Shown here: in pieces, positions 24,936 to 28,522 of the stretch
Layout: every line of letters starts with the position of its first letter
Numbering within the stretch: position 1 is the first letter of the stretch
IMG/VR virus record: IMGVR_UViG_3300020118_000062
Span: 1 to 40,291 of that record
DNA length: 40,291 nt
Origin: a virus
Strand: one strand, 5' to 3'
Notes under the pieces: generated by a model
Databases searched by the model: none
Told to the model about the DNA's origin: nothing
The model's input: only the letters and a program-made list of their open reading frames with translations
Program-made: the position numbers and the translations under genes

Positions 24936-25343
24936 TCAGGCGTCCGTGAAGATCAGACCGGCGTCGTCGAGCAGCAGCCGGCCCTGGTCATCGCACAGCA
25001 GCGATGACAGGGGCAGCCCTGGCGGCGGGATCTCAGGCAGCGCACCCCAGAACGGCGCAGCGCCCGGCCCGCCGTCGTAGAGCACGTCGCCCAGCTTCTT
25101 GCCGGCCAGACGCTGCAACGTGTTCGCGCCGCTTGGGAAAACCGTGCCGCCGTACTCGAAGGCCGGCTGCGCGTCGAATGAGATCCCGGCACCCGCCGGG
25201 CCGCTCGGGACCGTCGCCTTCGACAGCTGCTCGAGCGCGCGGTACCAGGGCTGCGACATGTAGACCGGCACGTCCTGGCCATCCGGGCTGCGGAACGAGC
25301 CGACCGCGACGCGCTGCGGCTGGATGTTGAAGATGCCGGCCAT
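24936..25343 (-). CDS. Tail-associated protein downstream of the neck genes
   Basis: The product has 135 residues; ATG 25343 overlaps the stop of the gp10-like gene. The first 45 residues (MAGIFNIQPQRVAVGSFRSP) look like a virion-binding segment, the middle is Gly/Pro-rich, and the end (LLCDDQGRLLLDDAGLIFTDA) has the repeated short strands that often end podovirus tail proteins. It is coupled to the neck protein and may link neck and fibre. Family not certain. Confidence 0.65.
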   Translation of the reverse strand: MAGIFNIQPQRVAVGSFRSPDGQDVPVYMSQPWYRALEQLSKATVPSGPAGAGISFDAQPAFEYGGTVFPSGANTLQRLAGKKLGDVLYDGGPGAAPFWGALPEIPPPGLPLSSLLCDDQGRLLLDDAGLIFTDA

Positions 25344-26626
25344 CAGGCGACTCCCTGAATCGCGGCGCCAACCCACTGCAGCGGCGCGTCGTCGGTGAAC
25401 CGGAAGTGCCAGGCCCGATCGGTCGACGAGCCATTGCGCAGGAAGCGCACCGGCTGCTGGTACTCGCCGACCGCGCCGATGCTCGTGCGGTTCCAGTCCT
25501 CCCAGCTCCGCGCGCCGTTGTCCGAGTAGCGCATTAGCATCTCGCACGCGCTGCCGTCGGGCTTGCCGGCGCCGGTCTGGACGTCTAGTCGCACCTCGCC
25601 GAACTTGATGCGCTTCTGTGATGGTTGCGCGTAGTGCGGGGTGACCCGGTCGCGCACCAGGATGTCGCCGGCGTTGTTGTTCGTCGCCGGGTTCCAGACG
25701 TACAGGCGTCCCGCGCCATCGCCCACGATGTGCTTGCCGTAGCAGTAGGCGTGGTGCGTGACGCGGCTCGGCTTGTACCAGCCGGTCGCGAGGTCGAGCT
25801 CGGCGCGATCGTGCCACTGGCCCGAGGCGACGTCATAGCCGAGCGTCGTGTCGAGGCCGGGAACCGTCAGGAGGTAGAACGAGCGGCCGTTCTGCTGGTA
25901 CGCGAGCGCGATCGACTTCGTCACGTCGGCGCCCGACTCGATCACGCGCTGGATCTTCTGCTCGATGGCCTGGTTGGAGATGCGCTGCGGCTGGTAGCCC
26001 TGTGCGCGCCAGACCATGCCGCCGCCTTGTTGGTCGCGACCGAGCCAGTAGAGCGTGTTGTCCAGCGCGCGCACGCTGAAGGCAGCGACGGTGCCGGTCT
26101 GCATGATCGCGCCGCGGTTCTGCTCGAACGGGAAGTCGGCCACGCCGTTGACCGTCGTCCCGCCGGTGAGCGTCCAGGGTTCCACGCTGGCCGAGCCGAA
26201 GAGCCACGCCTCGCCGTGGTCCGCGACGGGGCAGATGATGTTGTCGGGCGAGCTGGGCGCCTGCGCGAAGTCGAGAGGATCCTCGCTGGTGGCGTCCTCG
26301 ATCGCGCTGATGTACCAGTTCTGCGTGTTGGGCTGGCTGAACAGGAAGAAGCCGCCGGCATAGCCGGTGCGTGTGGACCCGAGCCAGCCGCTGTTGACGA
26401 TGCGCGTGAAGGTCATCGTCTGCAGGTCGTAGACGTAACCGTTCGGGCCGTCGGTGACCACCAGCTGGTTCGCGCCGATGCACATGTCGACCCAGCCATT
26501 GCGGCTGTTCAGCGTGCCGCGCAGGGTGCGCGCGCCCTTGCGGTCGACCGACAGCAGCAGGGAATCTTGCACGCAGAACAGCGCTGTGCCGTCGGCGTTT
26601 GCGACGAGGCCGCGGATCGCGCTCAT
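25343..26626 (-). CDS. gp10-like packaged-DNA stabilisation protein, beta-propeller part
   Basis: The product has 427 residues and corresponds to most of the P22 gp10-like tail hub protein. Recognisable blocks include LVVTDGPNGYVYDLQTMTF, SQPNTQNWYISAIEDAT, DHGEAWLFGSASVEPW, FPFEQNRGAIMQTG and YWLGRDQQGGGMVWRAQGYQ, the repeated Trp/Gly strands of a propeller. In homologues the first 50 residues precede this region in the same chain; here they are in the gene upstream (26623-27813). The ATG at 26626 overlaps that gene's stop (ATGA). The protein seals the portal after DNA packaging. Confidence 0.82.
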   Translation of the reverse strand: MSAIRGLVANADGTALFCVQDSLLLSVDRKGARTLRGTLNSRNGWVDMCIGANQLVVTDGPNGYVYDLQTMTFTRIVNSGWLGSTRTGYAGGFFLFSQPNTQNWYISAIEDATSEDPLDFAQAPSSPDNIICPVADHGEAWLFGSASVEPWTLTGGTTVNGVADFPFEQNRGAIMQTGTVAAFSVRALDNTLYWLGRDQQGGGMVWRAQGYQPQRISNQAIEQKIQRVIESGADVTKSIALAYQQNGRSFYLLTVPGLDTTLGYDVASGQWHDRAELDLATGWYKPSRVTHHAYCYGKHIVGDGAGRLYVWNPATNNNAGDILVRDRVTPHYAQPSQKRIKFGEVRLDVQTGAGKPDGSACEMLMRYSDNGARSWEDWNRTSIGAVGEYQQPVRFLRNGSSTDRAWHFRFTDDAPLQWVGAAIQGVA

Positions 26627-27813
26627 GTGTCCTGCAGCGCGAAAGAGTCCCAGCCGGCGGGCTGGTACTGGAACTCAGCGGCCTTGGTGCGGATGGTGTA
26701 GCTGCAGGTGATGCTTCCCGCGAAGCCCCACATCGCCATCGTCACCGGGCCGAGAAGATTGGTGTAGGCCGGGAAAGCTTGGGTCGCCGGCACGAAGCTC
26801 TGGTCGGGAACGCTGGTGCCGTTGTTGAACCACTGGCCGTTCACGCCGAAGGCAAGCACGCCGGTATCGAAGTCCATCGCGACCATCAGCACGTCGCCGT
26901 CGGCGTCGACATTCGGTTGCGTGATGCCGTTGTTGTCGTCGACGCTCAGATGCTTGACGTAGGACGCCCGCAGCCGCGCCCAGGCGTTCGCATCGTTGCC
27001 GGGAAAGCCAGTCGCAGCAGGACTCCATGTGCCGTTCGCGATCGCGTAGCACATGTCCTCCTTTTCGAACGTCGCCATAGCCAGGTGGTCTATGTGCAGT
27101 TCGAGGTAGCGTTTGCCGGTGTGCCGGAAGTGGTCGAGCCTGATGCCATAGGCCGGGTCCGCCGACGTGATTGCTGTCAGAGAGACAGTCAGGCCGCCGT
27201 TCGAGATGACCCAGTGTGCCGACTTGCTGGCGGCATCCCAGACGATGTCCTCCTCGACTCGGGTCGTGACCGTGGTCGTCACGCTGGCCGTCGAGGTGCC
27301 GCCGCCCACGTGCCCGGCCGGCGGCGTCGCCGTGGTCGTGTTGACGAGGCTGCCGGCATCGCTGAGAGTGCCGGTAATGGTCATGGTCGCCGTGCCGCCC
27401 GACGGCCATGGCGTGATGACGATCCCGGCGAGCAGTTCCGCCTGCGTGGCCGTGGCCGGCCCTGCGGCGCCACCCGCGTAGACGATGTCGCATGACGCGA
27501 ACGTGAACCCCGCCGGCATGGTGTCGGTGACGGTCCCGCCGTCGGCCTCATCGGGACCGAAATTCGTCGCGATCACGCTGTAGGTCTGGGAGGCGCCAAC
27601 AAACGCCGCGTCGACCTCCTGCGTCTTCACGACAAGCAGATCGTTCTGCAGCGCCGGCTCGCTGAACACGTCAAGGCCCGGCACCTGCTGGAAGTAGGCG
27701 CCGGTCTTCCCGCCGACCACCTCGTTCATCACCGGGAACATGTTCACGGTGCGCTGCACGTCCGCCTTGGGCGTCGCCAGGTCGTACGAGGGGCCGATGA
27801 TCGGGACGGGCAC
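26623..27813 (-). CDS. gp10 N-terminal segment fused to DUF11 and SPRY domains
   Basis: The product has 396 residues. Residues 1-51 (MPVPIIGPSYDLATPKADVQ and so on, ending VPGLDVF) match the N-terminus of gp10-like neck proteins. Residues about 62-185 are a DUF11/Ig-like repeat (YSVIATNFGPDEADG, TVTDTMPAGFTF). Residues about 190-396 are SPRY-like: YGIRLDHFRHTGKRYLEL, then GDVLMVAMDFDTGVLAFGVN, and a closing strand set. The rest of gp10 is a separate ORF immediately downstream. The whole looks like a cassette inserted into the gp10 gene, with translation restarting after it. Confidence 0.8.
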   Translation of the reverse strand: MPVPIIGPSYDLATPKADVQRTVNMFPVMNEVVGGKTGAYFQQVPGLDVFSEPALQNDLLVVKTQEVDAAFVGASQTYSVIATNFGPDEADGGTVTDTMPAGFTFASCDIVYAGGAAGPATATQAELLAGIVITPWPSGGTATMTITGTLSDAGSLVNTTTATPPAGHVGGGTSTASVTTTVTTRVEEDIVWDAASKSAHWVISNGGLTVSLTAITSADPAYGIRLDHFRHTGKRYLELHIDHLAMATFEKEDMCYAIANGTWSPAATGFPGNDANAWARLRASYVKHLSVDDNNGITQPNVDADGDVLMVAMDFDTGVLAFGVNGQWFNNGTSVPDQSFVPATQAFPAYTNLLGPVTMAMWGFAGSITCSYTIRTKAAEFQYQPAGWDSFALQDT

Positions 27814-27823
27814 GGCGACTTCC

Positions 27824-28522
27824 TCAGAGGCCGCCGAGGAACTCGGCCTTGGTGTACCAGCCGCGCTGCTGCGTAGGTAGCGGCACGTCCAGCTGCGGCA
27901 CCGTCAGGTTCGCGCGCTTGACCATGCGGCGCGCGCCGGCGGCCCGTCGCGCGACCGAGTCGGGCACGGCCGTCTCGTAGTCCGGCGCGATCTCTTCGGC
28001 CAGCGAGAAGATGAACGCGCGCTCGTAGCCGGCCGGCAGCTGGTAGTCGGTCGTCACATTGGCGAAGTTGCCAGCGGATAGGCGCGTGACCAGGTGCAGC
28101 TCGCACTGCGCCTGCGGCCAGAAGAACAGGTTGGCGGTCGGGTTGCCGCCGTCGAAGAAGCAGGCGACCGGCCACGCGGTCCCGATCGTCTTCTGGAAGA
28201 TCGAGTTGTAGGTCTCGCGGTCGATGACGTCGAGCGGATGGTCGATCGTCGCAACGCGCGTGAAGGAGCTGATCTCGATGCGCGTCGGCCGCGGGATGTC
28301 GATCTGCATCCCGGGCCCGATCGTCACCGACGAGACCGCGGGGAGCGCGAAGACCGTCTCCAGGTCGTTGAACGCGAAGGTCGGGCCCAGGTTCCAGCCG
28401 TCGATCATGGTGTTCAGGCGCTCGAGGCAATGCTCGAGGTCGCCGCCGCCCACGCGCTGGCTGGCGCCGCGCAGCCCGAGCGCGCTCATTGCGCCGCGGA
28501 TGATCTTCGTGGCCGTGGTCAC
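27824..28522 (-). CDS. gp4-like tail accessory / head-completion protein
   Basis: The product has 232 residues. The start TKIIRGAMSALGLRGASQRV and the helix EHCLERLNTMIDGWNLG, followed by a strand-rich core with ETYNSIFQKTIGTAWPVACF and the late motif AGYERAFIFSLAEEIAPDYE, are characteristic of the P22 gp4-like family. The protein binds below the portal ring and begins the tail. Its place between the coat and gp10-like genes agrees. Confidence 0.82.
   Translation of the reverse strand: MTTATKIIRGAMSALGLRGASQRVGGGDLEHCLERLNTMIDGWNLGPTFAFNDLETVFALPAVSSVTIGPGMQIDIPRPTRIEISSFTRVATIDHPLDVIDRETYNSIFQKTIGTAWPVACFFDGGNPTANLFFWPQAQCELHLVTRLSAGNFANVTTDYQLPAGYERAFIFSLAEEIAPDYETAVPDSVARRAAGARRMVKRANLTVPQLDVPLPTQQRGWYTKAEFLGGL

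Follow-up and report, generated by a model that had tools for sequence, protein, structure and literature searches.

In short-tailed phages, hub proteins belong to the conserved parts of the virion. P22 gp10, Sf6 gp8 and the hub proteins of Pam1 and Pan3 (Hc3, PF11134, phrog_578) share their profile, their fold and a position after a gp4-like adaptor with the locus described here. However, they are single chains of ~440-475 residues, and they lack an insert at the loop where our locus is split. The nozzle proteins SU10 gp17 (PMC9509320) and T7 gp12 (PMC6702177) belong to the same propeller-nozzle class and, unlike our locus, are also single chains. SU10 gp17 has inserted Ig-like domains too, but these make up the nozzle and sit between blades 2 and 3, whereas ours lie at the boundary between platform and propeller (PMC9509320).

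Two other kinds of system are related in part. The lactococcal 936 phages likewise carry exchangeable carbohydrate-binding modules on conserved virion proteins, namely the neck passage structure, evolved Dit and TpeX (PMC6669499), and domain shuffling is known in neck passage structures (PMC10684548). The 936 decorations are extensions, in-chain insertions or a frameshift extension, but the carrier gene is never split into two chains. The split nrdA of phage Aeh1 and the split DNA polymerase 43A/43B (PMC2988022) likewise make one protein as two reassembling chains. However, these are enzymes whose genes were divided by homing endonucleases or by untranslated sequence, and neither half bears a displayed domain. 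Virion binding modules, Ig-like domains in nozzles and two-chain phage enzymes are each known separately. In the open literature (most subscription papers lie outside it), we found no description of a virion hub that is split and has an exchangeable module on one half.

The DNA that we analysed is a metagenomic virus record of 40,291 bases (the "window", meaning this whole stretch). It has P22-type head and tail genes on its minus strand, in the order large terminase, portal, scaffold, P22-like coat, gp4-like adaptor, a pair of ORFs called A and B, and tail-fibre and ejection genes. The integrase gene is on the plus strand. In the small group of environmental short-tailed bacterial viruses to which the window belongs, the gene of an essential tail-hub protein is divided at a natural domain boundary, and this conserved part of the core has seemingly been turned into a swappable display site. 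The relevant features are listed in Table 1.

Table 1 Positions of the A/B pair, its parts and its neighbours in the window
Feature	Position	Strand	Remarks
gp4-like tail adaptor (Ad3), upstream neighbour	27824..28522	-	phrog_12985, phrog_637
ORF A: gp10 N-terminal piece plus insert	26623..27813	-	GTG start, 396 aa
gp10/Hc3 N-terminal piece, A residues 1-54	27652..27813	-	phrog_578 positions 5-68
DUF11 (Ig-like), A residues 57-162	27328..27645	-	PF01345
SPRY/lectin-like region (weak), A residues 188-343	26785..27252	-	PF00622 below cut-off, phrog_10080
ATGA overlap, A stop / B start	26623..26626	-	kept in L001, L002
ORF B: gp10 remainder (propeller plus C-terminal platform strands)	25343..26626	-	ATG start, 427 aa
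Downstream neighbour, 137 aa	24936..25349	-	resembles ORF directly downstream of B in L001 (by eye)

ORF A opens with MPVPIIGPSYDLATPKADVQRTVNMFPVMNEVVGGKTGAYFQQVPGLDVFSEP, after which come 342 foreign residues, and ORF B opens with MSAIRGLVANADGTALFCV. The two overlap by the 4 bases ATGA. Within PHROG 578 (head closure Hc3, 486 positions), residues 2-66 of A match positions 5-68 (E 6e-4), and residues 9-424 of B match positions 64-468 (E 5e-83). Given this complementary coverage, the two halves adjoin, and together they match the gp10/Hc3 profile across the whole protein. B also matches the Pfam family Phage_stabilise (PF11134; 29.2 bits, cut-off 25), and its profile matches include the hub proteins of P22, Sf6, Pam1 and Pan3. 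The original prediction read the upstream ORF as beginning like gp10 and the downstream ORF as the remainder, starting where the first part stops. Both readings hold, although the N-terminal piece is ~54 residues long rather than 51, and gp10, there called a neck protein, is strictly a tail hub/nozzle subunit. Members of the family are single continuous chains, whereas A and B are two ORFs in different frames, and we therefore regard them as a split variant of the P22 gp10/Hc3 family.

Judged by its sequence, gp10 is split without loss of residues at the junction. The spacing from PGL to [IV]RG is 12-13 residues in intact proteins, and in the window it is filled by FSEP from A and MSAI from B. 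Upstream of B, its frame stays open for just 6-21 codons (in the window the open frame has 443 codons, versus 427 from the ATG), so B has no longer form. Estimates of dN/dS, which are rough because the sequences are short, are ~0.2-0.4 for the N-terminal piece and 0.2-0.3 for B, and point to purifying selection on both.

Two contigs from other metagenomes, L001 and L002, have the same split, N-terminal piece and ATGA. Their cores are 72% and 76% identical to B of the window, respectively. Two further contigs, L098 and L101, were found through the N-terminal motif; in these, the same N-terminal piece leads into different inserts. They stop at contig ends ahead of the core, such that both halves are present in three contigs only. 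The N-terminal piece of the window is 65-75% identical to those of the four contigs, and the gp4-like adaptor is directly upstream in L001, L002 and L098 as well. A relative in which the downstream ATG opens a full-length gp10 would have counted against the original prediction. The two relatives that reach the core, L001 and L002, share this ATG, but in each an ORF with the N-terminal piece precedes it.

By contrast with the conserved pieces, the inserts differ. We detected no similarity among the inserts of the window, L001 (~200 residues) and L002 (~330 residues). The L001 insert has no significant match to a known family, and that of L002 matches Laminin_G_3 below threshold. L101 has a DUF11 domain ~62% identical to that of the window, but the region after it differs. 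The L098 insert is short, with DADLSTPxSGTLD repeats; within L098:1-1418 its own ATGA comes next, and the contig ends in a tail-fibre gene (phrog_4176, E 5e-62). As this gene lies before any core, the insertion site may accommodate whole genes. An insert is present in all five contigs that bear the signature FPVxNEVxGGKT. Thus, as in the 936 decorations, non-homologous exchangeable modules occur on a conserved carrier, here in five members with different inserts. This exchange between relatives is a stronger point than the two-chain reading. The remaining viral scans with clade-specific motifs yielded no additional members, scans of bacterial genomes found no close relatives, and plasmids gave distant hub homologues only.

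These relatives also bear on whether the split is an artefact. In a metagenomic virus record such as the window, an assembly chimera or a sequencing error could in principle join frames wrongly. However, independent contigs have the same arrangement and the same neighbours with different inserts. Since L001 and L002 come from other metagenomes and combine the same split and ATGA with unrelated inserts, an error is refuted as the cause of the split, and we give this explanation practically no weight.

The insert of the window was originally described as ~340 residues of DUF11 and SPRY sequence. Its length is 342 residues and the DUF11 domain is clear (PF01345, 49.4 bits against a cut-off of 24.6, E 7e-13), with a match to TIGR01451 that also exceeds the cut-off. 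The assignment of residues 188-343 to a SPRY or phage lectin type is only suggestive: PF00622 scores 13.5 bits against a cut-off of 26.3, phrog_10080 matches with E 9e-5, and a virion structural protein of a Xanthomonas phage matches in tblastn with E 1e-3. A structural model of ORF A has a pLDDT of 52 overall; the DUF11 part is mostly at 70-89, and the SPRY-like region is of low confidence. In Foldseek searches, the modelled DUF11 part resembled the CLIPPER domain of a fibrillar adhesin and the RrgB pilin, which are stalk-like Ig folds of surface adhesins. A search of solved structures with the SPRY-like region gave no meaningful match, and the insert had no match among named phages at E 1e-3. 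An Ig-like stalk with a lectin-like head is a reasonable guess for this insert.

Split phage genes usually originate from mobile elements (PMC2988022), and the gene might accordingly be broken by an intron, intein or homing endonuclease, or be decaying. In the window, however, no intron or other structured RNA matched Rfam at the gathering threshold, profile searches found no endonuclease or intein domain in the insert, and the frame of A runs unbroken from the gp10 piece to the insert. Both pieces have low dN/dS, and the arrangement recurs in several contigs. The relatives largely refute decay or a mobile-element break, which we consider very improbable.

Homologues at a greater distance consist of a single ORF of ~470 aa. 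The N-terminus is fused in one frame in 88/88 of these loci, which comprise 8 phage records and the best 80 of >580 viral contigs, some of them near-identical. It is likewise fused in a single ORF in the nearest intact relatives (35-44% identity). In a tree, the three split cores group as a single clade (support 100/100) that is nested next to intact relatives, a pattern that fits one split with later exchange of inserts. With the root placed at the midpoint, the direction from intact to split is indicated mainly by how widespread the intact forms are. One contig with intact hubs, IMGVR_UViG_3300019124_000103 (82,500 bases), has two similar copies of the gene, L095 and L097. This duplication suggests that two related phages lie in tandem or that the assembly is concatenated.

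The position of the split was examined on one of these intact proteins, L099, which is modelled with a propeller-plus-platform fold like that of P22 gp10. Its model, built with a 38-sequence alignment, has a pLDDT of 90 and a TM score of 0.86 to P22 gp10 (8u10), within a range of 0.82-0.86 for the hub proteins of Pan3, P22, Sf6 and Pam1. The model has four strands up to residue 53, 28 across residues 58-353 and seven from residue 366 on. Going by this count, the 28 strands would form seven four-stranded blades, as in the T7 and SU10 nozzles. The N-terminal piece matches the N-terminal strands that precede the propeller, and the split is predicted to fall in the loop 54-57, between these strands and the first of the 28. 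T7 gp12 builds three strands of its C-terminal platform barrel from the first 45 residues of the chain (PMC6702177). In SU10, the polypeptide passes from the N-terminal platform part into blade 1, whose edge holds the dock of the short fibre (PMC9509320). By analogy with these two proteins, chain A would be a donor of platform strands, with the insert leaving at the boundary of blade 1.

We favour the explanation, with a probability of roughly 70%, that the hub reassembles from two co-translated chains, with A displaying a swappable stalk/lectin-like adhesin. A and B would be made from one message by termination-reinitiation at the ATGA. A, with the N-terminal strands and the insert, would fold together with B, with the propeller and the C-terminal strands, and might thereby supply strands to the platform domain. 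The hub hexamer would then carry about six copies of the displayed module per tail. If the related nozzles are a guide, the Ig-like stalk and lectin-like head may lie on the outer tail surface, near the place where fibres dock. A swap of the module between phages would alter or strengthen binding to the host surface, and the insert, an exchangeable domain, probably grips this surface. The two-chain reading of the original prediction is the best supported; the co-assembly of the chains and the binding by the insert are what we infer. The odds seem about even that this is a natural form of split-protein display, in which the hub is divided at a domain boundary and the short strand-donating chain can be exchanged together with its adhesin while the core chain is left untouched. 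If the chains do reassemble, a site on the hub carries and exchanges foreign domains of 130 to >340 residues, and the locus would show how podoviruses gain host-binding functions outside their tail fibres and offer a directly testable case of a two-chain virion subunit.

Tail fibres commonly reuse anchor domains. This, together with the good conservation of B by itself, would fit a different arrangement, in which A is an independent tail adhesin anchored by a borrowed gp10 N-terminus and B forms the hub without A. However, the window holds one gp10 core and one N-terminal piece: a profile of this piece finds it with E 6e-29 as the sole convincing match, and profile searches found no second copy in the window or its relatives. 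In every member, B lacks the N-terminal piece and has no upstream frame that could encode one. The piece is also under purifying selection and joins B with no residues missing. We consider an independent adhesin unlikely.

Overlaps of the ATGA type are ordinary in phage operons, and a second gene pair with one is present in the window. The ATGA between A and B occurs in all three complete members, which suggests reinitiation. The same overlap could instead be the site of a frameshift that fuses A and B, making gp10 one continuous protein with a large insertion inside it. Relative to A, the overlap puts B in the -1 frame, and a single -1 slip would therefore fuse them; in 936 phages, programmed frameshifts yield extended tail proteins (PMC6669499), which provides a precedent. 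Nevertheless, the three sequences share no visible slippery heptamer ahead of the junction, A ends in codons that vary between them and B has its own conserved ATG, such that fusion by frameshifting is improbable.

Apart from the displayed module, smaller insertions occur in the hub genes. Six residues around position 155 of the window's B (TTVNGV region) are an insertion that L001 and L002 lack. In the intact hub L054:5833-7371, 34 residues are inserted relative to L099; they follow residue 397 and belong to the C-terminal part.
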